From contig JBCCHV010000012.1 of assembly GCA_039028635.1 (NCBI GenBank), forward strand, positions 1-64,000: a stretch of DNA of 64,000 nt. The letters are read 5' to 3'. Shown here piece after piece: positions 29,710 to 44,043 of the stretch. The notes under the pieces were generated by a model. It was not told the DNA's origin. It worked only from the letters and a program-made list of their open reading frames with translations, and searched no databases. Both the position numbers and the translations under genes were made by a program. How positions within the stretch are numbered: the first letter of the stretch is position 1; each line of letters opens with the position of its first letter. Origin of the DNA: Acidobacteriota bacterium (lineage in GTDB: Bacteria > Acidobacteriota > Thermoanaerobaculia > Multivoradales > JBCCEF01).

Positions 29710-31140
29710 ATGAACCGCAGCCGCGATCCCGAGTCCTGGGAGAGTCCGGAGTTCCCCCTCCAGCGTTGGCGCTGGGCCGCGATCGCTGCGCCCCTCCTGC
29801 TGACCGCCGTGCTGATGGCCCTCCTCTGGGCTTTCGCCGAACCGGCGCCCTGGGCGCCCTGGGCGCTCGCTGCCATCGCCTTGGTGGCGGTGATTTTCTA
29901 CGCCGTCGTCTTCTCTCGCCTCGAGGGCTACCGACGGCGCCTCGAGCGCCGCAATCAAGAGCTCGAGCTGTTGCGTCGTGCGGCCTTGAACGTCGGTTCG
30001 GAGCTCAGCCTCGAAGTGGTTCTGGAGCGTTTGGTCGAACAGGCGACGCAGCTTCTTGGAACCCGCTACGGGGCCCTCTCGGTGCTCGGCGAGGACGATG
30101 CCATCAAGACCTTCGTCACCGTGGGAATCGGTCGGGCGGCGGCCGATCAGATCGGCTCGCCGCCGGTCGGCCGAGGCCTGCTGGGAATTTCACTCCACCG
30201 CGGGGAAACGCTGCGTTTGGGCGACCTGACGCTCGACCCGCGAGCCTGCGGCTTTCCCGACCATCATCCGCGGATGTCCACCCTACTGGCGGTGCCGCTG
30301 GCCTGTCAGTCGCCCTATCGCGGCAATCTCTACCTGAGCGAGAAGATCGACGGCAGGAGCTTCGATCGGGAAGACGAAGAGACTCTCATCCGCTTCGCCG
30401 CCCAGGCCGCCATGGCGGTGGACAACGCCCATCTGCACTCGCAGGTGGGTTCGGTGGCGGTGGCCGAAGAGCGGCTGCGCTTGGCTCATGAGCTGCATGA
30501 TGGCCAAGCCCAGGTGCTCGCCTTCGTCAATGCCAAGGCTCAGGCGGTGCGGGAGTTTCTGCGCAGCGAGAGCTACCAGGAGGCGAGGCGTCAGCTCGAT
30601 CAGCTCGCCGAAGCCGCCCGCGGCATCCTGGCCGACGTCCGCGAGGGCATTCTCGGCCTGCGTTCGGTCGGCGCCTCGGGACCCCTTTTGGACAACCTGC
30701 GCCAGTACCTCGAGCTCTGGCAAGAACAGGCTCGTATCGAGGTCGAGGCGCGCCTCGAGCCGATCCCGGAGCTTCCGCCCGGGGTCGAGCTGCAGATTCT
30801 CAGAATTCTGCAGGAAGCGCTGACCAACGTACGCAAGCACGCCGGCACGGACCGGGTGCGGGTCGCCCTCGAGCCCTGGGGACGCGGGCTGCGCCTCGAG
30901 ATCGATGACCGGGGTCGCGGCTTCACCGCCGGCGCCAGCGGCCCTGTCGGCATCCCCCGCTTCGGCCTCGCCACCATGCGCGAGCGCGCCCAGGCGATCT
31001 CCGCCCAGCTCGATGTGACCTCCGAGCCCGGCCGGGGGACGCGGGTTCGCCTGCAGTACGAACCGGATCCGACCACCTCCAATGACGGTCTGCTCTTGGC
31101 GGGCCTCGATTCCAGCGACCGCGAAGGAGAATCCGCTTGA
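29710..31140 (+). CDS. GAF-domain sensor histidine kinase (NarL/DegS type)
   Basis: A 476-residue kinase. Two membrane helices occupy residues 18-60, followed by a short coiled coil, a GAF domain (about 95-240, 'LGTRYGALSVLGEDD', 'VPLACQSPYRGNLYL'), a HisKA_3 dimerisation domain with the phosphoacceptor in 'LAHELHDGQAQ' near residue 262, and a HATPase domain ('EALTNVRKHAG', 'DDRGRGF', 'GLATMRERA', 'GRGTRVRL'). The stop overlaps the start of the response regulator gene (TTGA), so the two form a cognate pair. The GAF domain may bind a small ligand, haem or an Fe-S cluster; I see no clear cysteine cluster. Confidence 0.93.
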   Translation: MNRSRDPESWESPEFPLQRWRWAAIAAPLLLTAVLMALLWAFAEPAPWAPWALAAIALVAVIFYAVVFSRLEGYRRRLERRNQELELLRRAALNVGSELSLEVVLERLVEQATQLLGTRYGALSVLGEDDAIKTFVTVGIGRAAADQIGSPPVGRGLLGISLHRGETLRLGDLTLDPRACGFPDHHPRMSTLLAVPLACQSPYRGNLYLSEKIDGRSFDREDEETLIRFAAQAAMAVDNAHLHSQVGSVAVAEERLRLAHELHDGQAQVLAFVNAKAQAVREFLRSESYQEARRQLDQLAEAARGILADVREGILGLRSVGASGPLLDNLRQYLELWQEQARIEVEARLEPIPELPPGVELQILRILQEALTNVRKHAGTDRVRVALEPWGRGLRLEIDDRGRGFTAGASGPVGIPRFGLATMRERAQAISAQLDVTSEPGRGTRVRLQYEPDPTTSNDGLLLAGLDSSDREGESA

Positions 31141-31796
31141 GAATCCTGATAGCCGACGATCATGCCCTGTTCCGCGATGGTCTCAAGAGCCTCCTCCGCG
31201 GCCACGGTCTCGAGGTGGTGGGCGAGGCGGCCAACGGCCGTGAAGCGATCGAGCTCACCCGCACCTTGCAGCCCGACATCGTGCTGATGGATCTCGCAAT
31301 GCCCGAGATCGACGGCCTCGCGGCCACCCGTGCGTTGGCCCACGCAGATCTACCCTCCAAGATCGTCGTCCTGACGGCGTCGAGCGACGACGGCAACCTC
31401 TTCGAGGCGATCAAAGCGGGGGCGGAGGGCTACTTGCTCAAGGATCTCGAGGCGGAGTCCTTCTTCGCCCTGCTCGCAGGAGTGGCGCGAGGCGAGCCGG
31501 CTTTGACGCCTGGATTGGCTCGCAAGGTGCTGCAGGAGTTCGCGCGCCCACAGGCGACGCCCAGCAAGGACCACGACCCCGATGCCCTCACTGCCCGCGA
31601 GCAAGAAGTCCTCGAGATCATGGTCGAGGGAGTGACCACCAATCGCGGCCTGGCGGAAGCGCTGGGAGTGAGCGAGAACACGGTCAAGTTCCACGTCCGC
31701 AACATCCTCGACAAGCTCCACCTCAACAACCGTGCCCAGGCGGTTGGATACGCCTTGCGGCACGGCCTGGTCGAAGGCGTCGACGAAGCCAAGTAG
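31137..31796 (+). CDS. LuxR/NarL-family response regulator
   Basis: A 219-residue regulator with a receiver domain ('ILIADDHALFRDGLKSLL', phosphoacceptor Asp in 'DIVLMDLAMP' near residue 54, Lys in the 'LLKDLEAESF' region) and a C-terminal LuxR helix-turn-helix ('LTAREQEVLEIMVEGVTTNRGLAEALGVSENTVKFHVRNILDKLHLNNRAQAVGYA'). TTG at 31137 is the only start that overlaps the kinase stop and keeps the conserved N terminus. It lies upstream of the respiratory operon in the same orientation and may regulate it. Confidence 0.93.
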   Translation: MRILIADDHALFRDGLKSLLRGHGLEVVGEAANGREAIELTRTLQPDIVLMDLAMPEIDGLAATRALAHADLPSKIVVLTASSDDGNLFEAIKAGAEGYLLKDLEAESFFALLAGVARGEPALTPGLARKVLQEFARPQATPSKDHDPDALTAREQEVLEIMVEGVTTNRGLAEALGVSENTVKFHVRNILDKLHLNNRAQAVGYALRHGLVEGVDEAK

Positions 31797-32077: not shown

Positions 32078-32617
32078 ATGTCCGCAGAACCGACGGATCG
32101 TCCCGACGATCCGACGACAACGCCGGAGCGGCGCACCTTTCTGAAGCGACTGGCCTCGCTGCTGGTCGGCGGCGGTCTGGTGGCTGCCTACGGCACCCTG
32201 GCGGGATTCTTCGCGCGCTTCCTCTACCCCGCCCGGGGCGATCGCGGGAGCTGGATGTTCGTGCGCCAGATCAGCGGCGTAGGGGTTGGGGACTCGGTGG
32301 CCTATCGCTTGCCCAACGGCTTGCCGATCAGCATCACGCGCCGGGGTGATTCCGGCCAGGCGAAGGATTTCGTGGCCTTCTCCAGTACTTGCCCTCACCT
32401 CGGTTGCCGGGTCCATTGGGAGTCCCACAACCAGCGCTACTTCTGTCCTTGCCACAACGGCGTCTTCAGTCCTGACGGTCGCGCCATCGCCGGACCGCCG
32501 GCAGATGCCGGTCAGTCCTTGGAGCCCTACCCCCTGGAGGTGCGGGACGGCTTGCTCTTCATCCAGGTTTCTCTCGACCAGGTGGCTGCCAAGGGCCGGT
32601 CGACGAACCGCGCATGA
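32078..32617 (+). CDS. Rieske iron-sulfur protein of a cytochrome b complex
   Basis: A 179-residue Rieske protein. The N-terminal ERRTFLKR followed by a hydrophobic helix resembles the twin-arginine signal-anchor used by such proteins. The [2Fe-2S] ligands are the box CPHLGC near residue 105 and the box CPCHNG near residue 123, each with its His; 'GPPADAGQSLEPYPL' is the Pro loop. It takes electrons from quinol at the periplasmic face. ATG 32078 follows GAGGAGG. The 281-base gap before it (31797-32077) has two short hairpins (31829-31846, and CCACCCG with CGGGTGG near 31979) but no clear promoter. It overlaps the cytochrome b gene by four bases. Confidence 0.94.
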   Translation: MSAEPTDRPDDPTTTPERRTFLKRLASLLVGGGLVAAYGTLAGFFARFLYPARGDRGSWMFVRQISGVGVGDSVAYRLPNGLPISITRRGDSGQAKDFVAFSSTCPHLGCRVHWESHNQRYFCPCHNGVFSPDGRAIAGPPADAGQSLEPYPLEVRDGLLFIQVSLDQVAAKGRSTNRA

Positions 32618-33657
32618 GGGCTTTGACGCAGTGGTGGACGGAGCGTTTTCCGGTTTCCGCCGACGATCTGCGGACGCTAACCAACGAGCCCGTCCCGGAG
32701 CATCTCAAGCGCTGGTGGTTCGCCCTCGGAGGCACTCCCGCCTACCTCTTCGTAATTCAGATCGTCACCGGAATCGGGCTCGCTTTCTACTACCAGCCGA
32801 CCACCCTGGGAGCCTACGAGTCGGTGCGCTACATCACCGAGGAGGCGGCCTTCGGGTGGTACATCCGCGGTCTCCACAAGTGGGGCGCGACGCTGATGAT
32901 CGCGGCCGTCGTGTTGCACCAGATGCGGGTCTTCTTCACCGGCGCCTATCGCCGTCCGCGGGAGCTCAACTGGGTGGTCGGCATGACCATTCTGGTCGCC
33001 ACCCTGATGCTGGGTTTCACCGGCTACAGCCTGGTCTACGAACAGCTCTCCTATTGGGGTGCCACCGTCGGAGCCAACATGGCGGCCGGCGTTCCGGTGG
33101 TCGGAGATCTGCTGCAACAAATGCTCCTCGGCGGCGAGGCCTACAACGCCCATACGCTGTCCCGCTTCTATGTGCTGCACGCGGCGGTACTGCCGATGTT
33201 CCTGGTGCTGCTGATCGCTCTCCACATCGTGATCATTCGGCTGCACGGCATCGCCCCCCTCGAGCCCGAGGGCGGCAAGCCCGGCCGCACCTTCGACTTC
33301 TTCCCCGATCACATCCTGACGGAGCTCATCATCGGCCTCGGTCTGATGATCGTTCTGTCGGCCTTGGCGACCCTTCTGCCGGCCAGCCTGGGACCGCCCG
33401 CCGATCCCCTCACCACCCCCGAGGTGATCAAGCCGGAGTGGTTCTTCTATGTCGCCTTCCGCTGGCTCAAGCTGTTCTCCGGCACCTTCGCCTTGCTGTC
33501 GATCGGGTTCATCGTTTTCACCATGTTCGCCTGGCCCTGGATCGATGGCTGGATTCGGCGCCGCAGCCGCTTCAAGGAGGCCAGCATCTGGATCGGCATC
33601 GCGGCGGCTCTGGCGATCATCACCCTCACCGTTTGGGAAGGACTGGTAGCCCACTGA
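32614..33657 (+). CDS. Cytochrome b of a Rieske/cytochrome b complex
   Basis: A 347-residue membrane protein combining the b6-like and subunit-IV-like halves. The two haem-ligand His pairs are visible: 'GLHKW' with 'VLHQM' 14 residues later, and 'VLHAAV' with 'ALHIV' 15 residues later. The quinol-site motif reads PEWFF where PEWY is usual. It would oxidise quinol together with the Rieske protein. No cytochrome c1 or cytochrome f gene follows; an octaheme cytochrome c gene occupies that place, 40 bases downstream. Confidence 0.93.
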   Translation: MRALTQWWTERFPVSADDLRTLTNEPVPEHLKRWWFALGGTPAYLFVIQIVTGIGLAFYYQPTTLGAYESVRYITEEAAFGWYIRGLHKWGATLMIAAVVLHQMRVFFTGAYRRPRELNWVVGMTILVATLMLGFTGYSLVYEQLSYWGATVGANMAAGVPVVGDLLQQMLLGGEAYNAHTLSRFYVLHAAVLPMFLVLLIALHIVIIRLHGIAPLEPEGGKPGRTFDFFPDHILTELIIGLGLMIVLSALATLLPASLGPPADPLTTPEVIKPEWFFYVAFRWLKLFSGTFALLSIGFIVFTMFAWPWIDGWIRRRSRFKEASIWIGIAAALAIITLTVWEGLVAH

Positions 33658-33697
33658 TCGGCTCGCCCCGGCACTGCTCGAGGCCCTTCTCTATGGG

Positions 33698-35353
33698 ATG
33701 GAGGTGTTCCCGGTGGATTTGAAACAGAAACGCTGGATCATCATCGGACTGGCTTTCCTCTTCTTGCTGTCGCTGCTCCTGGTGCAGTGGCGCGAGGTGG
33801 CGCGTCGTCACGAGGAGCTCGGCATGACGGCGCCGAGCTTTGCGGTACCGGCGACCTCCCAATCGTGCATGGACTGCCATGTGGAAACCACCCCGGGCAT
33901 CGTCGATCACTGGGCGGGCAGCAAACATGCCATCACCGGCGTCGGTTGCTACGACTGTCACCGCGCCGAAGAGGGCGACGTCGATGGCTTCGATCACTAC
34001 GGCCTGCGGGTGGCGTCGGTGGTCACGCCCCTCGACTGTGGTCGCTGCCATGCCGAGGTGGCGGAGGAATTTCAGGGCAGTCATCACTCCGCCGCCGGCA
34101 ACATTTTGGCTTCCCTCGACAACTTCCTCGCCGAGACGGTGGAGGGTGGCCCGCCGCTGTTCAATCCTCACTCGCCGACGCCGGGCAAGATGGTGGAGTC
34201 GGTCAACGGCCACGCCAGCGCCTTCCTGGGGTGTCAACAGTGCCACGGCAGCAAAGTGGCCTTCCGGACCGTCGACGGTGGTCGCGTCACGGTGGATGAC
34301 CTGAAGCCGGACAAGGCCGGCCATCCAACCAATGCCCAGGCGGTGGCGCGAATCCTGCGCGATCCCAGTGGCAAGCCGATCTTCGACGCCGGGACCTGGC
34401 CCAATACCGGCATCGGCCGGCTCAATCTCGATGGCTCGCGGGGCTCTTGCTCCGCTTGCCACAGCCGTCACGATTTCTCGCCCCGGCGGGCCCGCCAGCC
34501 GGAGAACTGCGGCAAGTGCCACCTCGGTCCGGATCATCCGCAGAAGGAGATCTTCGAAGAGTCCAAGCACGGCGTCGCCTACCGCGACCTCAAGGACGAG
34601 ATGAACCTGGCGGGCGAGTCCTGGGTGCTGGGCGAGGACTACAGCCAGGCGCCGACCTGCGCCACGTGCCACATGTCCGGCCATTCGCGCAACGGTGGCC
34701 GGGTGACCCATGACCCCGGCGAGCGCATCTCCTGGACCAATCGGCCACCGGTCAGCCTGGTGCTCGACACCGACGCCGAGGGACACGTCGTCAAGGCCAC
34801 CGATCCGGTGGAGCGCCAAGCGCTGATCGCCGACTCGGCGGAATCGAAGCGCAACCGCATGAAAGCGGTTTGCTCCCATTGCCACACGCCGAGCTACATA
34901 GATGCCTTCTACCAGCAGTACGACGACCTGGTGATCCTCTACAACGAGAAGTTCGCCAAGCCCGGCCAGGCGATCATGGCGGCGCTGCTCGACCAGGGGT
35001 TGAGGTCCGAGACCGCCTTTGACGAAGAGATCGAGTGGACCTGGTTCTACCTCTGGCACCACGAGGGGCGGCGAGCCCGCCACGGCGCCTCCATGATGGC
35101 GCCCGACTACACCCACTGGCACGGCATGTACGAGGTCGCCGAGCGCTTCTACATGGAGCTCATCCCTCAGGCGCGGGAGCTCACCGAGGAGGGACGCGGT
35201 CACGGTAAGGGCGCCGGTGCCGCCGTCGTCGAGGGACTGATCAGCGACATCCTCGAACGGCCCGAGCACGCCTGGTTCGAGGAGGGTGCCGAAGACGACA
35301 TGCGACGCATTCGCGAGGCGATGGAGGAACGCTATGGACAGGGCGAAAGCTGA
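33698..35353 (+). CDS. Membrane-anchored octaheme cytochrome c, hydroxylamine oxidoreductase-like
   Basis: A 551-residue multihaem cytochrome. One N-terminal hydrophobic helix (IIIGLAFLFLLSLLLVQW) anchors it facing the periplasm. Eight CxxCH sites occur near residues 57, 84, 113, 179, 251, 271, 321 and 392 (CMDCH, CYDCH, CGRCH, CQQCH, CSACH, CGKCH, CATCH, CSHCH). Number, spacing and total length fit the octaheme HAO/nitrite-reductase superfamily. The segment 'MMAPDYTHWHGMYEV' near residue 470 resembles the region that carries the haem-crosslinking Tyr in true HAO, which I cannot confirm. The gene overlaps the next by 20 bases. It is likely the electron acceptor of the Rieske/b pair; catalysis on N or S compounds is possible. 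Confidence 0.88.
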   Translation: MEVFPVDLKQKRWIIIGLAFLFLLSLLLVQWREVARRHEELGMTAPSFAVPATSQSCMDCHVETTPGIVDHWAGSKHAITGVGCYDCHRAEEGDVDGFDHYGLRVASVVTPLDCGRCHAEVAEEFQGSHHSAAGNILASLDNFLAETVEGGPPLFNPHSPTPGKMVESVNGHASAFLGCQQCHGSKVAFRTVDGGRVTVDDLKPDKAGHPTNAQAVARILRDPSGKPIFDAGTWPNTGIGRLNLDGSRGSCSACHSRHDFSPRRARQPENCGKCHLGPDHPQKEIFEESKHGVAYRDLKDEMNLAGESWVLGEDYSQAPTCATCHMSGHSRNGGRVTHDPGERISWTNRPPVSLVLDTDAEGHVVKATDPVERQALIADSAESKRNRMKAVCSHCHTPSYIDAFYQQYDDLVILYNEKFAKPGQAIMAALLDQGLRSETAFDEEIEWTWFYLWHHEGRRARHGASMMAPDYTHWHGMYEVAERFYMELIPQARELTEEGRGHGKGAGAAVVEGLISDILERPEHAWFEEGAEDDMRRIREAMEERYGQGES

Positions 35354-35519
35354 GTCGGTACCGCGCCTGCGGGAGGACCTCGAGATCGATCTCGAGGCGC
35401 GGGTCGGGCATCCCAAGGGAACGCTACTGATCGTCGGTCTCTACGGCGCCCTCTTCGCCCTTGGCTGGCTGGCGCTGTTCTTCCTCGAGTTCTTGCCGCG
35501 GGGAGCGCCCCAGCCATGA
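35334..35519 (+). CDS. Small single-helix subunit, cytochrome c oxidase subunit IIa-like
   Basis: A 61-residue protein starting at ATG 35334 inside the octaheme gene and ending four bases into the next. After a charged N-terminal 27 residues comes 'HPKGTLLIVGLYGALFALGWLALFFLEFLPRG', one membrane helix. The PKGTL motif before the helix is what small subunit IIa proteins of ba3-type oxidases show, and its place directly before subunits II and I agrees. In those enzymes the helix replaces the missing first helix of subunit II, although here subunit II also has its own. Confidence 0.8.
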   Translation: MDRAKAESVPRLREDLEIDLEARVGHPKGTLLIVGLYGALFALGWLALFFLEFLPRGAPQP

Positions 35520-35995
35520 GCGCCATGAAAGTCGATCTCTACGAGCGTCTCTGGCTGTGGGGAGCGAGCCTGATGATCGCCGCCTTCCTGACCGCCATCG
35601 TGGTGGGGGCGCGGCTGCATGCGGTCCATCCTCCGAGTCACGTCGAGACCATCGATCCCTTGCGGGTCCGCACCGATTCGGAGTTCGCCCAGCCGGGCGT
35701 GCGCACCGCACCGGATGGTTCGGTCCTGGTGGTGGCGGTGGCCGAGATGTATCGCTTCCGACCCCAGCTCATCCGCGTGCCGGCGGGACAGCCGATCCGC
35801 TTTCGCATGACCAGCCCGGACGTGCTGCACGGCTTCCAGGTGGTCGGCACCAATGCCAACGTGATGGTGGCACCGGGCTACGTCAGCGATTTCACCGTCA
35901 CCTTTCCCCATCCCGGCGAGTACCTGGTGCTGTGCAATGAGTACTGTGGCTTGGCGCACCACCAGATGGCCTCGCGGTTGATCGTCGAGCCATGA
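35516..35995 (+). CDS. ba3-type cytochrome c oxidase subunit II (CuA)
   Basis: A 159-residue subunit II with one N-terminal membrane helix (ASLMIAAFLTAIVVGA) and a cupredoxin domain. The binuclear CuA ligands are in CNEYCGLAHHQM near the C terminus, with the extra His in 'SPDVLHGF'. The short length matches the ba3 (B-type) family rather than aa3. It receives electrons from a cytochrome c, here most plausibly the octaheme protein encoded just upstream. Start and stop overlap the neighbours by four bases. Confidence 0.95.
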   Translation: MSAMKVDLYERLWLWGASLMIAAFLTAIVVGARLHAVHPPSHVETIDPLRVRTDSEFAQPGVRTAPDGSVLVVAVAEMYRFRPQLIRVPAGQPIRFRMTSPDVLHGFQVVGTNANVMVAPGYVSDFTVTFPHPGEYLVLCNEYCGLAHHQMASRLIVEP

Positions 35996-37626
35996 CCGCG
36001 CAGTCTATGGTGGCTCGTGACCGCCTGGCCCTGTCGAATCTCGCCGTCTCGCTGGTGGCCTTCGCTCTCGGCGCCGTGATGGCGGTGATGCAATCCCTCT
36101 CCCGGGCCGATCTGGACGTGGTGTTCCGTTCGCCCAAGGTCTACTACCTGTCGGTCACCGCCCACGGGGTGCTGATGGGATTGGTCTTCACCACCTTCTT
36201 CATCATGGCCCTGGGCATCGTGTTCGTTCGCCAGTGCCTGGGTCGCTGGGTCGACGACCGTTGGGGTTGGGTGGCCTTCGGTGTCGCCCTTTTCGGAACC
36301 CTGATGACCACCGCGGCGATCCTCTCCGGCACCAGCTCGGTGCTCTACACCTTCTATCCACCGATGCAGGCCCATCCCACCTTCTACATCGGCGCGACGC
36401 TGCTGGTGGTCGGGTCGTGGGTTTGGTGCGGCTGCATGATCGCTTCGGTGCGAGTCTGGCAGCGGCAGCACCGCGGCAAGCCGCTGCCCTTGCCGGTGCA
36501 CGGTTTACTGGCGACGGTGATCGTCTGGCTATTGGCCACCAGCGGCCTGGCGATCGAAGCTCTCGGCATGCTGATCCCCTGGTCCCTCGGTTGGGTCGAG
36601 ACCATCGACCCCATCCTCGCCCGGACCTATACCTGGTGGTTTGGTCATCCGCTGACCTATTTTTGGCTGCTGCCGGCCTATGTCGTCTGGTACACGGTGC
36701 TGCCGCGGGTGGCCGGCGGGCGACTCTTCAGCGAGCCCTTGACGCGCCTGGTCTTCATGCTCTTCGTGCTGTTCTCGACCCCGGTCGGCTTGCATCACCA
36801 GCTCTCCGATCCGGGGATCTCGAGCGACTGGAAGCTGGTCCACACCTTCAGCACCTACGTCATCCTGTTCCCCAGCCTGGTGACCGCCTTCACGGTCATC
36901 GCCTCTCTCGAGACCGCCGGCCGTCTGCGCGGTCGCAAGGGCTGGCTCGACTGGCTGAAAGACCTGCCTTGGAAGGACCCTTTGCTGGTGAGCGTCGTCT
37001 TGGCGATGTTGACCTTCGCCCTCGGCGGCTTCGGCGGCGCCGTCAACGCCGCCTACGCGATGAACAACATGGTCCACAACACCGCCTGGATCATGGGTCA
37101 CTTTCACCTCACCGTCGGAACCGCCGTCGCCCTCACCTTCATGGGCGCCACCTACTGGCTGCTACCGCGCTTGACGGACCGCCCCCTGGCGTTGCCGGGC
37201 TGGGCGTTGGCGCAGGCCTACCTGTGGTTTGTCGGCATGATCCTGTTCGGGGTCGTCAACCACATCACCGGCATCCTGGGGATGCCGCGTCGGGTCTACA
37301 GTGCCGAGTACTTCGGTGCCGAGCAGGCGGCCCGCTGGCAGTCCTGGACGCTCGCTTCCGCCGTTGGCGGTGTGCTGCTGTTCGTCAGCTCGTTGATCTT
37401 TCTGGTTGTGGTGGTGGCCACCTTCCTGCAGTCCCGCCGTCAGGCGCCGCTGGCGATGGAGTTCGCCCGTCCGCTGGCTCCACCGGCCACCCGCCGCGGA
37501 CTGTGGGATCGCTTCCTGCTGTGGTCCGCCGTGGCGGTGGTGTTGGTGGTGGTGGGCTACTACCAGCCGATCACCCACCTGCTCGCCCTCGAACGCTACG
37601 GCTCGCTGCCCTTCAAGCCCTTCTAG
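35992..37626 (+). CDS. ba3-type cytochrome c oxidase subunit I
   Basis: A 544-residue haem-copper oxidase subunit of the B family, closely patterned on the Thermus ba3 enzyme. The low-spin haem His lies in 'TAHGVLMGLVFT'. CuB ligands are in 'WWFGHPLTYFWLLPAY' (His and the crosslinked Tyr four residues on) and 'PVGLHHQ'. The haem His pair is in 'MVHNTAWIMGHFHL'. It has 13 or so membrane helices. It reduces O2 to water and pumps protons; B-family oxidases generally have high O2 affinity. Its stop codon overlaps the convergent GCS2-CBS stop. Confidence 0.96.
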   Translation: MTAQSMVARDRLALSNLAVSLVAFALGAVMAVMQSLSRADLDVVFRSPKVYYLSVTAHGVLMGLVFTTFFIMALGIVFVRQCLGRWVDDRWGWVAFGVALFGTLMTTAAILSGTSSVLYTFYPPMQAHPTFYIGATLLVVGSWVWCGCMIASVRVWQRQHRGKPLPLPVHGLLATVIVWLLATSGLAIEALGMLIPWSLGWVETIDPILARTYTWWFGHPLTYFWLLPAYVVWYTVLPRVAGGRLFSEPLTRLVFMLFVLFSTPVGLHHQLSDPGISSDWKLVHTFSTYVILFPSLVTAFTVIASLETAGRLRGRKGWLDWLKDLPWKDPLLVSVVLAMLTFALGGFGGAVNAAYAMNNMVHNTAWIMGHFHLTVGTAVALTFMGATYWLLPRLTDRPLALPGWALAQAYLWFVGMILFGVVNHITGILGMPRRVYSAEYFGAEQAARWQSWTLASAVGGVLLFVSSLIFLVVVVATFLQSRRQAPLAMEFARPLAPPATRRGLWDRFLLWSAVAVVLVVVGYYQPITHLLALERYGSLPFKPF

Positions 37627-39467
37627 GCGACCCAGCCGAGGAGGGCTTTCAGCAGGTCGTGCTCGGTGGCGATTCCGATCAGGTGCTGGTTGTCATCGAC
37701 CACCAGGAGGCAGCCGCGACGCTGGTCGAGCAGCAGGCGGATGGCCTCGAGCAAGGCCAGGTCCGGCGGCACGCGGAGCGGCTCCGGGTCCATGATCTCC
37801 TCGGCGGCGATGGCACCATCGGTCCGCCCCTTGCGGCCTAGCTCGAGCAGGGCGCGATGGGAGAGCAGGCCCACCAGCCGGCCATCGGACGCTTCCACCG
37901 GAACGTGGCGGAAGTGCTTCCAGGTCATCATCGAGGTGGCGAGATCGGCGATGTCCTTCGGCTTGACGGTGAAGACGTCCTGGGTCATCACGTCGGCGAT
38001 GCAGAGCGACCGCCGCGGTGGCTGCTCCGCTGTCGGTGCCGGCCAGCGATGGATCGGTTCGCCCGACGATTGATGCTGCTCGAGCCGCCGACAGAGGGCC
38101 GGAGCCGAAGCCCCCGGCTGCGAAAAGGCTTCCATCAACCAGCGAGCGCCGGTGCGGTCCTGGAGTAGCCGCTGCTCGATCGTTCCAAGGTAGCGCTGGC
38201 GCTCCTCAGCCGGTACGCCGATCTCTTCGAGGCCGGCATCGGCTGCCGGCAAGAGCTCGTCGAGCAACAGCTCGCGGGCCGAACATCGTTGGCCATCGAG
38301 CCAGACCAGCTCGGCGGTTGGCCCGAGGCGAGCCGCCTTGATGAAGTTGCCGCGAGCGTCGTCGAAGGCGAGGCGGGACGGAATCTCCCGGGCGGTGCCT
38401 TGAAAAGCCTTCATCAGGCCGTAGAAGAGGGCGGCGTTGGCGACCTCGTCGAGGACCGTCGGTCCGGCCGGCAGGACGCGGTTTTCGATTCGCAGATGAG
38501 CCACCCCGTCGGCAACGCCGTAGCAGATGCGGTTCCAGCGCCAGACGGTGCCGTTGTGCAAATTGAGGGCCGCCAGCGCCGGCGGCCCGTCCGACTGTTT
38601 GGGATCACAGGCCAGGATCACCGGGAAGCGGGCCACCGTGTCGCGGAACAGCTCGAGGGCCGATTGGTGGAGCCAGTCGCTGCCGAAGGTCACCCGCGGG
38701 TGTTTGCCGCGTTTCCTTTCCGCCCGGCTGCGGGCGTCGACGGCGCTCTCGAAGAGGGCGACGCGGGACTCGTGCCACAGGCGGCGCCCGAAGAGGACCG
38801 GTGAGTTGACGGCGGCGGCCAGTAGCGGTGCGGTGATCGCCTGTGCCAGGTTGTACTGGTGTGGAATCTCGTCGGCCGACGACTGCAGGTGGAGCTGGAG
38901 GCTGGTGTTGGCGGCCTCGAACATGACGTGCTCGACGCGCAGCTCGAGCAGATCACGACCCCGGATGTAGACCGAGAAGTCGCCTCCTCGGCTGGCCGCG
39001 AGGGCGTCGTTGAGCTGGCGGTAGCGCGGCAGCGGCGTCATGTTGTGGAGACCGAGATCGTCGAGCCGAAGGCTGGGCAGGATGCCGGTCAACAGCGGGC
39101 GTACTCCCTGCGCTTCGCCCGCCGTCGCGATCATCGCCAGGATCGCCGTCAGCTCGTCCTCGAGCTCGCGCAAGAAGCTGCCGCCGAGAGCCTTGGGAGG
39201 CAGATTGGCTTCGAGGTTGAAGCGCGCCAGCTCGGTGGTCAGGCGTGGGTCATCGACCGCTGCGAGGAGCTCGGGGCCGCAAGGTGCCGGGCGGCCGTTC
39301 CGGTCGATCAGGAAGAGCTCCTGTTCCAGCCCCATGCGCTCGACCCCGGACTCGATGGCCCCTTGTCGGATCAGCTCGTCCAGCGCTTCGAGATCTTTCA
39401 AGAGCTCACCGGTGAAGCTCTGGATGCGGCGTTCGTCGAGGGTCTCTTCGACCTTGTGCTGGCCCAT
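37623..39467 (-). CDS. GCS2-family glutamate-cysteine ligase-like protein with C-terminal CBS pair
   Basis: A 614-residue fusion. Residues 20-400 look like the GCS2 (YbdK-type) carboxylate-amine ligase fold: 'GLEQELFLIDRNGRPAPCGPELL', 'RFNLEANLPPKALGGSFLRELEDEL', 'RGRDLLELRVEHVMFEAANTSLQLHLQ', 'HLRIENRVLPAGPTVLDEVANAALFYGL'. Residues 490-612 are two CBS motifs ('IADVMTQDVFTVKPKDIADLATSMMTWKHFRHVPVEASDGRLVGLLSHRAL' and 'AAEEIMDPEPLRVPPDLALLEAIRLLLDQRRGCLLVVDDN'), which usually bind adenosyl nucleotides and regulate. ATG 39467 follows AAGGAG. It may make gamma-glutamyl compounds under energy-state control. The family is convincing, the substrate is not known. Confidence 0.85.
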   Translation of the reverse strand: MGQHKVEETLDERRIQSFTGELLKDLEALDELIRQGAIESGVERMGLEQELFLIDRNGRPAPCGPELLAAVDDPRLTTELARFNLEANLPPKALGGSFLRELEDELTAILAMIATAGEAQGVRPLLTGILPSLRLDDLGLHNMTPLPRYRQLNDALAASRGGDFSVYIRGRDLLELRVEHVMFEAANTSLQLHLQSSADEIPHQYNLAQAITAPLLAAAVNSPVLFGRRLWHESRVALFESAVDARSRAERKRGKHPRVTFGSDWLHQSALELFRDTVARFPVILACDPKQSDGPPALAALNLHNGTVWRWNRICYGVADGVAHLRIENRVLPAGPTVLDEVANAALFYGLMKAFQGTAREIPSRLAFDDARGNFIKAARLGPTAELVWLDGQRCSARELLLDELLPAADAGLEEIGVPAEERQRYLGTIEQRLLQDRTGARWLMEAFSQPGASAPALCRRLEQHQSSGEPIHRWPAPTAEQPPRRSLCIADVMTQDVFTVKPKDIADLATSMMTWKHFRHVPVEASDGRLVGLLSHRALLELGRKGRTDGAIAAEEIMDPEPLRVPPDLALLEAIRLLLDQRRGCLLVVDDNQHLIGIATEHDLLKALLGWVA

Positions 39468-39576
39468 GGCGCTCCTTGGAAAGTGCTTTCGCCCATCATG
39501 CCGCTCGTCGGTGCCTGGCGGCGATACCCGGCGGGATGGGGAAGGCGACCCCCGGGCTACCTTCTGGGGTAGGGGC

Positions 39577-39615
39577 AAAAAAATAGGGCCCGCTCCGCCC
39601 TCCGGAAACGAGCCC
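39577..39615 (-). terminator. Possible intrinsic terminator (minus strand), distal
   Basis: Read on the minus strand, GGGCTCG pairs with CGGGCCC (one G-U) around a 16-base loop and is followed by a TATTTTTTT tract. It lies about 190 bases past the lamin-tail nuclease stop, after a stronger terminator at 39734. Confidence 0.5.
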
Positions 39616-39801: not shown

Positions 39802-42800
39802 CTACTGGGCGACGTAGTAGACCCAGTACTTCATCAGGAAGAGCGAGCAGCCATAACGGCGCTGCAGGCGCTCGAACCAACTCGGCACCTGGATCGACTC
39901 GATGATCTGCTCGCAGGAGCAGCCGCCGGTCTCGGCGAGGGTGAAGTTGTGCCACGGGCTGGGTCCGATGCCGTGGCCGGGGCGATAGGTGTCGAAGGTG
40001 CCGTCGCCGTCGACCAGGGCAAAGCGCCAAGGCAGCAGGCGGCGTGTTGGCACGTCCTCGGGAATCACCGTCCCCGGGCAGAGGTCGGCGCCGTCCTCGA
40101 TGCCATCGAAGTCGGAGTCGAGCTCGGCCATGACATACAGCACCAGGCCGTCGTGATCCGACGAGCGCAGTGCCGTGGTGCCGTCGTCGATCAAGATGCG
40201 CGCCGCATCGGCGTTGCCGCGACCGAATTCCATGCCGGTCACCCGCGCCGCCAGGGACTGCGAGGTCAAGGCGTGGTCGATGGCCTGGGCGCTCCCCCGG
40301 AAGATGAAGGAGTAGCGATCCATCGCCGGCACCGTGAAGGTCTCCTTGACCAGGTTCGGATTCACCAGGTCGGGACCGGAACGCTCATTGTCGGCGGGGT
40401 TGAAGTCGCCGGCCATCTGGCCGACCACGTCGACGTAGCCGTCGGTGAACTCGTAGGCGTTGAAGTCACCCACCACCGCCAGGTTGATGGCCGGATCGGT
40501 GGTCTGCAGGTCCTGCACCATCTGGGCGATGGACTGGGCCTGCTCGAGGCGCTTCTGACGCACCCGGTTGCCGTTGGCGCCGGTGTCGTCGATGCCCGAC
40601 AGGGAGCGCGAGTGGACCGCCAGCACCGAGATCGGCAGCGGGCTGCCACTGCCGACATAGCTGCCCTCGAGGAGCAGCGGCGGCCGGTCGTGGAGCGGCG
40701 AGCCGTCCACCGACAGGGTTTCGCTGGCGCCCATCTGGATGATGGCATCGACGGTCACCGAGTCACGCACCATGAAGCCGACGTCGATACCGCCGACGTC
40801 GTTGCCTTCGACCAGGAACGAGGTGTAGTTGACCGTCGGGTCGTTGGTCGCGATCACCGCCGCCAGATCCTCGAGAGCGCCGAGCTTCTCGACCTCGGAG
40901 GTGGCCAGGATGTCCGGCGCGTCGAGCACGTCCACGATGTAGAGGGCGAGCTTGCCGAGGCGGCGGTCATAGTCGACGGTGGCGAGCACCGTACCGTCGT
41001 CCTCACTGCCCGGATCGTCGATGTCGTCGAACAACCGGAACATGTTGAGGGCGCCGATGGTCATCTCGCCGGGCTGACGCGGGCTGACGGCGCGCGGAAC
41101 GATCGCTTCGTTGACGGTGAGCTGAGTCGGCCAGATCTCGTAACCGCCGAACTCGAAGCCCAGCACGCCGACCGCATCGAAGGTCGAGCCGGCGGGAATC
41201 GCCAGGTTGGGCAGGCCGAGCTTGTCCGGATCGAGCTCGAAGATCTCCGGGTTGCCGTCGAACACCGGCAGCCCCGGCAGACCCGGGAAGGTGATGCCCG
41301 GCTCGCGGAAGGCGCGGTTCGGGCCGGCGACGATATTGACCTCCGCCAGCGGATCGGAGCCGAAGCTCTGGTTCGGGCCGGTGACGCTACCGCCGGTGAC
41401 CTCCACCAGCATGCCCTCGAAGCGCTCGAGCTCGGTGACCGCCTGCGGCGGCACCGGCGACGGCGTCGCGCCGTCGAGTACCACCGTGGCCGGCAGCGGG
41501 TTGCCGGAGCTGGTGACGGTGACCACCGGTAGGCGGATCTCCGTCAGGTCGAAGAACTCGACCACCTCGCCGGTGACGTCGACGAGATCGCCGACGGCGA
41601 CCGTCGGAGCCACCGAAGTGAAGACGAAGATGCCGTTCGAGGTCTCGACGTCGGCATCGGCGCGCGCTTCCGGCGTTTGGATGAAGAAGCCGTCGAGGCC
41701 GAGGGCGGTGACCACGTTGTCGACCGTCGTCACCGTTTGGGTGGCGAAGGGCGAGGCCAGGCCGTTGCCCTGGATCTCGAAGATCTCGAGGATCTGGGGC
41801 GGCACGTTGCTGGCTCCCGGGGTCGGTGCCTGGGCGACGTAGGTGGAGGTGTCGAAGGGCGTTCCGCCGTCCGGCACCCGCGAGTTGGAGTCGCCGGTCT
41901 GGTTGCCGTTGGCACCTTCGTTGACCTGCGCCTGACCCGGCGTGAGCGCGGCCAGCAGGCCGGTATCGTCGGAGTCGTTGGTGTCGTAGACGACGGCGTC
42001 CACCAAGTTGGCGGCGGTCACCGCGGTGCCATTCGGGAAGTCGCTGGCGTCGCCTTCGTAGACGGCGACGGCGTCGGCACCGTTCTGCAGCGAGTTGTTC
42101 GCGAACACCAGGCCGACGTTGGCGACGGCGGCGTTGCCGAGCACGAAGAAGCCCGCGCCGTTGGTGCTCAGGCCGTCGAGGTCGAAGGCGTTGTAGGAGG
42201 TGTCGCTCGAACCGTTGAAGAACACCACCACCAGGCCATCGAGGGGCGCGTTCGGCGGTCCGAGGAGCTCGACGAACTCACCCGTGTCGGTGCTCACCTG
42301 GTCGGCATCGACCTCGTTGATCACCACTGCCGTCGGGCCCGGCACGTTGCTGATTCCCGGGGTCGGTGCCTGTTGCACGTAGGTCGAAGTGTCGAGCGCC
42401 GTGCCGCCATCCGGGAAGCGCGAGTTGGAGTCGCCGGTCTGGTTGCCGTTGCCGCCCTCGTCGACCTGTGCCTGGCCCGGCGTGAGTACCGCCAGCAGGC
42501 CAGCATCGTCGGCGTCGCCGGTACCGTAGACCACGGCGTCGATCAAGTTGCTGGCGGTCACCGCGGTGCCGTTGGGGAAGTCGCTGGCATTGCCGACGTA
42601 GATCGCCACCGCGTCGGCGCCGTTCTGCAGTCCATTGCTGCCGAAGACGATGTCGACGTTGGGCACGGCGGCGTTGCCGAGGACGAAGAAGCCGTCGGCG
42701 TCGAGGCTGAAGCCATCGAGGTCGAAGGCGCTGTAGGAGGCGTCGCCGGAGCCGTTGTAGAACACCACCACCAGGCCGTCGAGGGCGGCTCCGCCGGTGC

Positions 42801-44043
42801 CGAAGAGCTCGACGAACTCACCCATGTCGGTGCCCGACTGGTCGGCGTCGACTTCGTTGATCACCACGTCCGGTGCCACCACCGGGCCGTTGTTGGTGGC
42901 TCCCGGGGTCGGCGCCTGCTGGACGTAGGTGGAGGTGTCGAGGGGTGCGCCGCCGTCCGGCACCCGCGAGTTGGACTCGCCGGTCTGGTCGCCGTTGCCG
43001 CCCTCGTTGAGCTGCGCCTGGCCGGGGGTGAGCACCGCCAATAGGCCGGCGTCGTCGGAGTCGTTGGTGTCGTAAACCAGGGCGTCCACCAGGTTGGCGG
43101 CGGTCACCGCGGTGCCGTTCGGGAAGTCAGTGGCGTCGCCTTCATAGACGGCGACGGCGTCGGCGCCGTTCTGCAGCGAGTTGTCCGCGAACACCAGGCC
43201 GACGTTGGCGACGGCGGCGTTGCCGAGTACGAAGTAGCCGCCGGCGCTCAAGGAGAAGCCGTCGAGGTCGAAGGCGGCGTAGGAGGTGTCGCTCGAGCCG
43301 TTGTAGAACACGACCACCAGGCCGTCGAGGGGCGCCCCGCCGGCGCCGAAGAGCTCGACGAACTCACCCATGTCGGTGCTCACCTGGTCGGCGTCGACCT
43401 CGTTGATCACCACCGCTGTCGGGCCCGGCACGTTGCTCACGCCGGGGGTCGGCGCTTGATGCACGTAGGTCGAGGTGTCGAGGGGCGTGCCACCGTCCGG
43501 CAAGCGCGAGTTGGAGTCGCCGGTCTGGTTGCCGTTGCCGCCCTCGTTGAGCTGCGCCTGGCCCGGGGTGAGCACGGTCAGCAGGCCGGTGTCGTCGGAA
43601 TCGTTGGTGTCGTAGACGACGGCGTCCACCAGGTTGGTGGCGGTCACCGCGGTGCCATTGGGGAAGTCGCTGGCGTCGCCGGTGTAGAGAGCGACGGCAT
43701 CGGCGCCGTTCTGCAGGCCATTGCTGGCGAAGACGATGCTGACATTCGGCACCGCGGCGTTGCCGAGGACGAAGAAGCCGTCGCCGTCGAGGGTAAAGCC
43801 GTCGAGGTCGTAGGCGGCGTAGGAAGTGTCGTTCGAGCCATTGTAGAAAACGACCACATAGCCATCGAGCACCGCGTTGGGATCGCCGAAGAGCTCGACG
43901 AATTCACCCATGTCAGTGCCCGCCTGATCGGCGTCGACTTCGTTGATCACCGGCTGCGCCAGGGCGAGCGATGGCAGCAGCAGGGCGAGGGCGAGGACGG
44001 CGAAGAGCCGGCCGGCCCGGTGAGTCAGGGTCCTTGGCAACAT
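39802..44043 (-). CDS. Secreted nuclease with four lamin-tail domains, OB-fold and endonuclease/exonuclease/phosphatase domain
   Basis: A 1413-residue exported protein. Signal peptide to residue 29 (LALLLPSLALAQ). Four lamin-tail domains of about 181 residues follow, each opening 'INEVDADQ' and closing 'STYVxQAPTPG'. Next is an OB-like domain (about 757-870, 'GFFIQTPEARADADVETSNGIFVF'), as in YhcR/ExeM-type nucleases, then an EEP nuclease domain (about 985-1300) with GDFNAYE near 1195, 'DHAL' and the catalytic SDHD near 1294. A thrombospondin type 3-like calcium stretch (DSDFDGIEDGADLCPG) precedes a Cys-containing tail. ATG 44043 follows GGAGGG. Probably an extracellular DNase. Confidence 0.9.
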   Translation of the reverse strand: MLPRTLTHRAGRLFAVLALALLLPSLALAQPVINEVDADQAGTDMGEFVELFGDPNAVLDGYVVVFYNGSNDTSYAAYDLDGFTLDGDGFFVLGNAAVPNVSIVFASNGLQNGADAVALYTGDASDFPNGTAVTATNLVDAVVYDTNDSDDTGLLTVLTPGQAQLNEGGNGNQTGDSNSRLPDGGTPLDTSTYVHQAPTPGVSNVPGPTAVVINEVDADQVSTDMGEFVELFGAGGAPLDGLVVVFYNGSSDTSYAAFDLDGFSLSAGGYFVLGNAAVANVGLVFADNSLQNGADAVAVYEGDATDFPNGTAVTAANLVDALVYDTNDSDDAGLLAVLTPGQAQLNEGGNGDQTGESNSRVPDGGAPLDTSTYVQQAPTPGATNNGPVVAPDVVINEVDADQSGTDMGEFVELFGTGGAALDGLVVVFYNGSGDASYSAFDLDGFSLDADGFFVLGNAAVPNVDIVFGSNGLQNGADAVAIYVGNASDFPNGTAVTASNLIDAVVYGTGDADDAGLLAVLTPGQAQVDEGGNGNQTGDSNSRFPDGGTALDTSTYVQQAPTPGISNVPGPTAVVINEVDADQVSTDTGEFVELLGPPNAPLDGLVVVFFNGSSDTSYNAFDLDGLSTNGAGFFVLGNAAVANVGLVFANNSLQNGADAVAVYEGDASDFPNGTAVTAANLVDAVVYDTNDSDDTGLLAALTPGQAQVNEGANGNQTGDSNSRVPDGGTPFDTSTYVAQAPTPGASNVPPQILEIFEIQGNGLASPFATQTVTTVDNVVTALGLDGFFIQTPEARADADVETSNGIFVFTSVAPTVAVGDLVDVTGEVVEFFDLTEIRLPVVTVTSSGNPLPATVVLDGATPSPVPPQAVTELERFEGMLVEVTGGSVTGPNQSFGSDPLAEVNIVAGPNRAFREPGITFPGLPGLPVFDGNPEIFELDPDKLGLPNLAIPAGSTFDAVGVLGFEFGGYEIWPTQLTVNEAIVPRAVSPRQPGEMTIGALNMFRLFDDIDDPGSEDDGTVLATVDYDRRLGKLALYIVDVLDAPDILATSEVEKLGALEDLAAVIATNDPTVNYTSFLVEGNDVGGIDVGFMVRDSVTVDAIIQMGASETLSVDGSPLHDRPPLLLEGSYVGSGSPLPISVLAVHSRSLSGIDDTGANGNRVRQKRLEQAQSIAQMVQDLQTTDPAINLAVVGDFNAYEFTDGYVDVVGQMAGDFNPADNERSGPDLVNPNLVKETFTVPAMDRYSFIFRGSAQAIDHALTSQSLAARVTGMEFGRGNADAARILIDDGTTALRSSDHDGLVLYVMAELDSDFDGIEDGADLCPGTVIPEDVPTRRLLPWRFALVDGDGTFDTYRPGHGIGPSPWHNFTLAETGGCSCEQIIESIQVPSWFERLQRRYGCSLFLMKYWVYYVAQ
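41800..43955 (-). repeat. Four tandem ~540-bp coding repeats (lamin-tail units)
   Basis: Units start at about 43950, 43411, 42865 and 42325 on the minus strand, giving a period near 542 bases. Nucleotide similarity is high; for example the motif encoding VINEVDADQ differs only at third positions among units. Units 2 and 4 share 'VSTD', units 1 and 3 share 'GTDM' or 'AGTD', which suggests a two-unit duplication. Confidence 0.85.

Follow-up and report, generated by a model that had tools for sequence, protein, structure and literature searches.

Complexes in which multiheme cytochromes replace the c1 or f subunit beside a Rieske protein and cytochrome b have been described in Kuenenia stuttgartiensis, from the clusters Kuste4569-4574 and Kustd1480-1485, one of which has an octaheme cytochrome c (OCC) resembling hydroxylamine oxidoreductase (HAO) (PMC12954380). 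In Caldithrix abyssi, Cabys_2558-2556 encode a Rieske protein, a cytochrome b and an epsilon-Hao beside Nap, and the cluster was interpreted as serving nitrite reduction; its authors named transfer from the Rieske protein to the octaheme protein as one option and placed the main route through NapM (PMC5317091). Dibrova and others, as cited in that paper, proposed that multiheme cytochromes were early Rieske partners. Here, we analyze a 64,000-nucleotide stretch of Acidobacteriota DNA (assembly GCA_039028635.1, contig JBCCHV010000012.1, positions 1 to 64,000; hereafter, the window), in which a Rieske/b pair and an OCC of the HAO family are joined to a ba3-type oxidase. An earlier reading made from the letters alone (the sequence-only reading) had pointed to Rieske/b clusters with HAO-like octaheme proteins in anammox planctomycetes.

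The six genes form a single plus-strand run, 32078-37626, with the following features.

32078-32617, + strand: Rieske iron-sulfur protein, 179 amino acids, with a twin-arginine translocation (TAT)-type N-terminus (PF00355; motif census in relatives)
32614-33657, + strand: cytochrome b, 347 amino acids, a single chain that covers both b6 and subunit IV (PF00033, PF00032; alignment to b6 of solved b6f)
33713-35353 (reading frame open from 33698), + strand: membrane-anchored octaheme cytochrome c of the HAO family (8 CxxCH; PF13447)
33728-33796, + strand: N-terminal membrane anchor of the OCC with the K11/L26/E33 signature (helix 8-40 in the AlphaFold2 model)
34532-34537, + strand: OCC D279-H280, equivalent to HAO active-site D267-H268 (alignment)
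35117-35119, + strand: OCC W474, at the position of the HAO cross-link Tyr467 (sequence and structural alignments)
35334-35519, + strand: oxidase subunit IIa-like single-helix protein, about 61 amino acids (open reading frame; conserved beside CoxII in relatives)
35516-35995, + strand: oxidase subunit II with the CuA site (H..CNEYCGLAHHQM) and an N-terminal helix (PF00116; alignment of 21 relatives)
35992-37626, + strand: ba3-type (B-type) oxidase subunit I, with the active-site Tyr in HPLTY (similarity to 1xme)

Three junctions (Rieske/b, IIa/II and II/I) are 4-base overlaps, OCC and IIa overlap by about 20 bases, and 55 bases separate cytochrome b from the OCC, measured to the GTG at 33713. 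Because of these overlaps, the six genes are a probable single transcription unit. The GTG is most likely the OCC start, as GGAGG lies ahead of it and it agrees with the starts of orthologs; the alternative ATG at 33698 was judged less likely. Pfam matches identify the Rieske protein (PF00355), Cytochrome_B (PF00033/PF00032), Multi-haem_cyto (PF13447), COX2 (PF00116) and COX1 (PF00115), and IIa, without any Pfam match, is kept at the same position in relatives; the six-gene operon of the sequence-only reading is thereby confirmed, junctions included. Another genome of the genus (G238) has the six genes in an identical order, with 62 to 83% protein identity, so the arrangement is not due to chance. 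Across the window, the OCC is the sole open reading frame of at least 70 amino acids with any CxxCH motif, and it matches neither c1 nor f itself; thus, as had been claimed, neither cytochrome c1 nor a small cytochrome c is encoded in the window.

On balance, we lean toward a Rieske/b quinol oxidase whose anchored octaheme subunit would act as an electron hub, with the ba3 oxidase draining it. The parts, the anchor association, the active site and the ba3 linkage are read from sequence, and we infer all electron-transfer steps, the substrate and the direct contact between OCC and CuA. New here are the anchor signature of Rieske/b-linked OCCs and the ba3 linkage in several gene orders, sometimes together with Nap.

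The Rieske-b-OCC core itself is not new: the cassette is widespread in many phyla, often with the periplasmic nitrate reductase NapAB after it. A GTDB genome scan yielded at least 577 confirmed OCC relatives, of which the best 80 fall in the Planctomycetota, Acidobacteriota, Gemmatimonadota, Myxococcota, Bacteroidota, KSB1 and others; within the phylum, OCC matches occur in 82 of 297 genomes. Our neighborhood census covers 123 nonredundant OCC loci: cytochrome b lies directly upstream of the OCC in 83, NapA adjoins it in 35 (assigned by NF010055 over its cut-off, with NapB assigned by PF03892), ba3 stands beside it in 9, and a NapC-type tetra- or pentaheme protein, with no Rieske/b, is present in 9. 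In the loci with a NapC-type protein (L057-L060, L140, L145, L148, L152 and L156), the OCC is accompanied by a penta- or tetraheme quinol oxidase replacing Rieske/b; the tetraheme pairing is found in Shewanella, Grimontia, Photobacterium and Neiella. One KSB1 locus (L157) packs several multiheme cytochromes, with up to 13 hemes, and a Rieske/b pair into about 19 kb. An Opr-family-like porin gene can also lie near the cassette (for example, L043, 5995-7323); present near only 22 of the 123 OCC loci by one query, it was not counted as part of the system.

The N-terminal anchor tracks Rieske/b linkage. The K11/L26/E33 signature is present in all 83 Rieske/b-linked OCCs and in none of the 37 unlinked ones, a comparison over 120 loci with three others, cut by contig ends, set aside. 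Linked OCCs have an uncleaved-looking N-terminal helix, whereas the unlinked mostly have ordinary signal peptides. Eight independent contrasts, taken on a quick tree built without the N-terminus, were all concordant (p 0.0078). This correspondence suggests a physical association, and the OCC very probably belongs to the Rieske/b complex as one of its subunits. One tree branch (L046, L047, L048, L120, L121 and L126, from Anaeromyxobacter and others) contains OCCs that are 59 to 69% identical to that of the window and have neither anchor nor Rieske/b; these are secondary versions and probably soluble.

Close ba3 genes are rare: of 149 genomes in the class, 14 have one. Among the searched Acidobacteriota genomes with both a close ba3 (60% or more) and a close OCC, the two are linked in nine and unlinked in one (G359). 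The linkage takes four gene orders in several families, with Nap sometimes in the same operon: R-b-OCC-IIa-II-I (R denoting Rieske) in the window genome and G238; a divergent arrangement in G152; IIa-II-I-R-b-OCC-NapA-NapB in G107, G191, G358 and, across two contigs, G347; and R-b-OCC-NapA-NapB-IIa-II-I in G314 and G315. Locus L105 provides a further case. No cytochrome c gene was seen inside the ba3-linked operons of relatives, and no A-type oxidase was found beside any OCC among the 123 loci. Because linkage is repeated across gene orders, a functional link between ba3 and the cassette is likely, although linkage does not prove direct transfer. The sequence-only reading had called this joining unusual and proposed a neighborhood search across genomes. 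We found no Rieske/b-OCC joined to ba3, or to Nap and ba3 together, in the open-access literature searched, and an oxidase stands beside only 9 of the 83 cassettes.

Two genomes illustrate how the parts combine. G238 carries two cassettes, L033 (contig C27) and L034 (contig C46), one with ba3 (82% OCC identity) and the other with NapA (73%); the NapA cassette falls in another branch of the OCC tree and is therefore not a recent duplicate. In G334 (L179, contig C10, 3045-8968), the same ba3 stands beside another type of Rieske/b complex, in which the heme subunit is a hexaheme protein that has class-I cytochrome c domains, which argues that ba3 pairs with Rieske/b-multiheme complexes as such. 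At another locus (L166, G237 contig C6, 8095-10260), CoxII is followed by a CoxI truncated near residue 315 and then by just the final portion of an OCC; the arrangement resembles what a deletion would leave of a IIa-II-I-Rieske-b-OCC operon, unless the assembly is in error.

In the OCC there are exactly eight CxxCH motifs, along with the conserved distal His of the HAO family. Among solved structures, it is most closely related to Ignicoccus 4qo5, the Kuenenia reducing HAO-like protein 6h5l and HAO 1fgj, and the nine best structural matches of its AlphaFold2 model (predicted local distance difference test score, 74) all belong to the HAO family (Z 7.4-10.3, versus 6.1 for the next). PF13447, the sequence matches to HAO structures and the structural matches of the model thus agree on an HAO fold. 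Residues were mapped to the Nitrosomonas HAO sequence, compared letter by letter with 4fas. D279-H280 is invariant in 123 of 123 OCCs, and it and other surrounding residues are invariant in the ba3-only cassettes too. The column of Tyr467, the cross-link residue of oxidative, P460-type HAO, holds Trp in 118 of 119 OCCs, a gap in one and Tyr in none (the adjacent position 473 is His or Gln). Structural alignments to 1fgj, 4fas and 4n4n (precursor numbering) end in a register that agrees with W474; an invariant Tyr (Y471) three residues away calls for caution about the match of W474 to Tyr467.

Kept Asp-His without the cross-link Tyr is the pattern of octaheme nitrite reductases (epsilon-Hao/Onr), so we place the OCC among the reductive members of the family, those without this Tyr; it seems to be a reductase rather than a simple replacement for c1. 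The sequence-only reading had taken the octaheme protein as the acceptor of a Rieske/b complex in the simplest sense. Its place as the heme subunit is backed by the anchor signature; a mere stand-in for c1 seems too simple, since Asp-His is invariant and the commonest recognizable partner is NapA/NapB, not an oxidase. More likely, the OCC is an enzyme of the nitrite-reductase type with an additional role in relaying electrons, and its substrate, judged from context, is probably nitrite or another N-oxide.

The Rieske protein has both cluster motifs, CPHLGC (CxHxGC) and CPCHNGVF (CxCH); in a motif census of relatives, the second is mostly CPCHNGxF. Ser and Tyr near the cluster raise Rieske potential (PMC12954380), and neither is found around this one, so a low-potential, menaquinol-type Rieske/b complex is expected. 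Cytochrome b has four heme-ligand His in two pairs and PEWF (checked in relatives by a PEWF/PEWY census), is closest to b6 and, in the b6 alignment, has Ala in place of the heme c(n) Cys of cytochrome b6f. On the oxidase side, subunit I matches Thermus ba3 1xme at E 7e-119 and A-type enzymes at only E 1e-13 or weaker, and with its active-site Tyr present, the ba3 assignment of the sequence-only reading is well founded. The CuA site it had recognized in subunit II is complete in an alignment of 21 relatives, and the oxidase should therefore accept electrons from a heme or copper protein, not from quinol. Among the same 21 sequences, the CuA domains of OCC-linked and unlinked ba3 showed no obvious differences.

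In the hub model, cytochrome b and the Rieske protein would oxidize menaquinol with charge separation, and the Rieske head would pass one electron to the OCC, where other complexes use cytochrome c1. The OCC, as the high-potential heme subunit, would be fixed in the complex through its N-terminal helix and could pass electrons to CuA of ba3 and on to O2, to NapB/NapA where relatives encode these, or to its own HAO-type heme site for the probable reduction of nitrite or another N-oxide. The source genome (Acidobacteriota, 6.28 Mb, 95% complete) was searched by family for other cytochromes: its only Cytochrome_B and PF13447 matches are those of the operon, and it has three heme-copper oxidases, of which the one on contig C59 is A-type. 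On contig C30, an NrfD-type membrane protein, a small cytochrome c and a CoxII fused to a cytochrome c adjoin an oxidase, a set that we infer to be an alternative complex III plus caa3 branch. The operon would then form a second, low-oxygen branch alongside it.

Several observations weigh against the hub model. Few Rieske/b-OCC cassettes have an oxidase beside them, and gene adjacency may reflect co-regulation only. The same ba3 occurs without a close OCC in G330, G334 and G340, so it can accept electrons from another donor. Small cytochromes c are encoded elsewhere in the source genome, and a diffusible carrier may thus run between OCC and CuA. NapA was not found in this genome at E 1e-60, which bears on the source of nitrite.

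A more committed form of the hub model, tentative but possible, is a c1-less supercomplex in which the catalytic HAO-type octaheme subunit sits between Rieske and CuA, reducing an N-oxide and wiring quinol to O2 (to nitrate in relatives) as an aerobic/N-oxide switch. The main competitor of the hub model, which we regard as rather unlikely, makes the OCC the terminal nitrite (N-oxide) reductase of the Rieske/b-OCC complex, with ba3 a separate, co-regulated low-oxygen outlet fed by a diffusible cytochrome c or the other quinol oxidase. The active-site residues kept in every OCC, the preponderance of NapA over ba3 as partner (35 loci versus 9), the gammaproteobacterial pairing with a NapC-type tetraheme protein, the interpretation of the Caldithrix cluster as nitrite reduction (PMC5317091) and the small cytochromes c of the genome all suit it. 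It accounts less well for a ba3 linkage retained in four gene orders, for the lack of a cytochrome c gene with the oxidase in the window or inside the operons of relatives and for a cassette that remains with ba3 in a genome where NapA was not found.

The two readings in which the OCC is not a reductase are less likely than either the hub or the terminal-reductase reading. That it is a pure wire, a noncatalytic c1 replacement as the sequence-only reading supposed, agrees with its operon position, the lack of c1 and the anchor, but is improbable, as the invariance of D279-H280 and its surroundings even in ba3-only cassettes is unexpected for a wire. That it oxidizes an N or S compound and feeds electrons into CuA, as the sequence-only reading also allowed, is very doubtful: HAO family membership is in its favor, yet the Tyr that marks oxidative members is absent from all OCCs examined (W474 or H/Q473), which makes hydroxylamine an unlikely electron source. 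Least probable of all is that the OCC turns nitrite into NO with ba3 mainly an NO reductase or NO-tolerant oxidase; B-type oxidases do reduce NO in vitro, but in subunit I the active-site Tyr known from O2 reductases is present (HPLTY) and the protein closely matches Thermus ba3, and a role as nitric oxide reductase is accordingly not favored.

Two regulatory genes lie directly upstream.

29710-31140, + strand: GAF-HisKA_3 histidine kinase, a possible regulator (PF01590, PF07730, PF02518)
31137-31796, + strand: NarL/LuxR-type response regulator, overlapping the kinase gene and 281 bases ahead of Rieske (PF00072, PF00196)

Downstream, a minus-strand CBS-domain gene (37623-39578) converges on the subunit I gene, the two sharing their last 4 bases, and 39802-44043 (minus strand) encodes a 1,413-amino-acid protein with about four imperfect repeats starting VINEVDADQ, lamin-tail-like by eye.

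If the hub model is true, a catalytic multiheme enzyme can take over from the c1/f subunit in Rieske/b complexes of several phyla, oxygen and nitrogen-oxide respiration would share one membrane hub, and the Dibrova proposal becomes testable. The K11/L26/E33 anchor offers a simple sequence marker separating complex-bound from soluble octaheme proteins. Both sorts tend to carry the hydroxylamine oxidoreductase annotation, which matters for genome-based inference of nitrification and anammox.

Known systems share some of these features and differ in others. Caldithrix abyssi likewise has Rieske and cytochrome b adjoining a Tyr-less octaheme protein, with Nap also there and no monoheme cytochrome c nearby, but its cluster is without an oxidase and no anchor signature was described for it. 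The Kuenenia complexes share the multiheme cytochromes in place of c1/f; they differ in having b6 with a separate subunit IV, an NAD(P) reductase subunit, an extra hexa- or octaheme protein and a high-potential Rieske (Ser present, Tyr in one) and in being anaerobic, whereas the window operon has a one-chain cytochrome b, no gene for an NAD(P) reductase or separate subunit IV, and an Acidobacteriota rather than an anammox planctomycete host. The OCC shares eight hemes, their His ligands and the active-site Asp-His with Nitrosomonas HAO (1fgj) and Kuenenia 6h5l, and is distinguished from both by its membrane anchor and from HAO by the missing cross-link Tyr. The oxidase shares IIa, II with CuA, I and the active-site Tyr with Thermus thermophilus ba3 (1xme); the Thermus enzyme receives its electrons from cytochrome c552, while that of the window is gene-linked to Rieske/b-OCC. 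The actinobacterial bcc-aa3 supercomplex also couples a cytochrome bc complex to an oxidase without a soluble cytochrome c between them (PMC4505504), but it does so through a diheme c1-type subunit and an A-type oxidase, whereas the window's assembly, known here from its genes, would pair an octaheme HAO-type subunit with a B-type oxidase.

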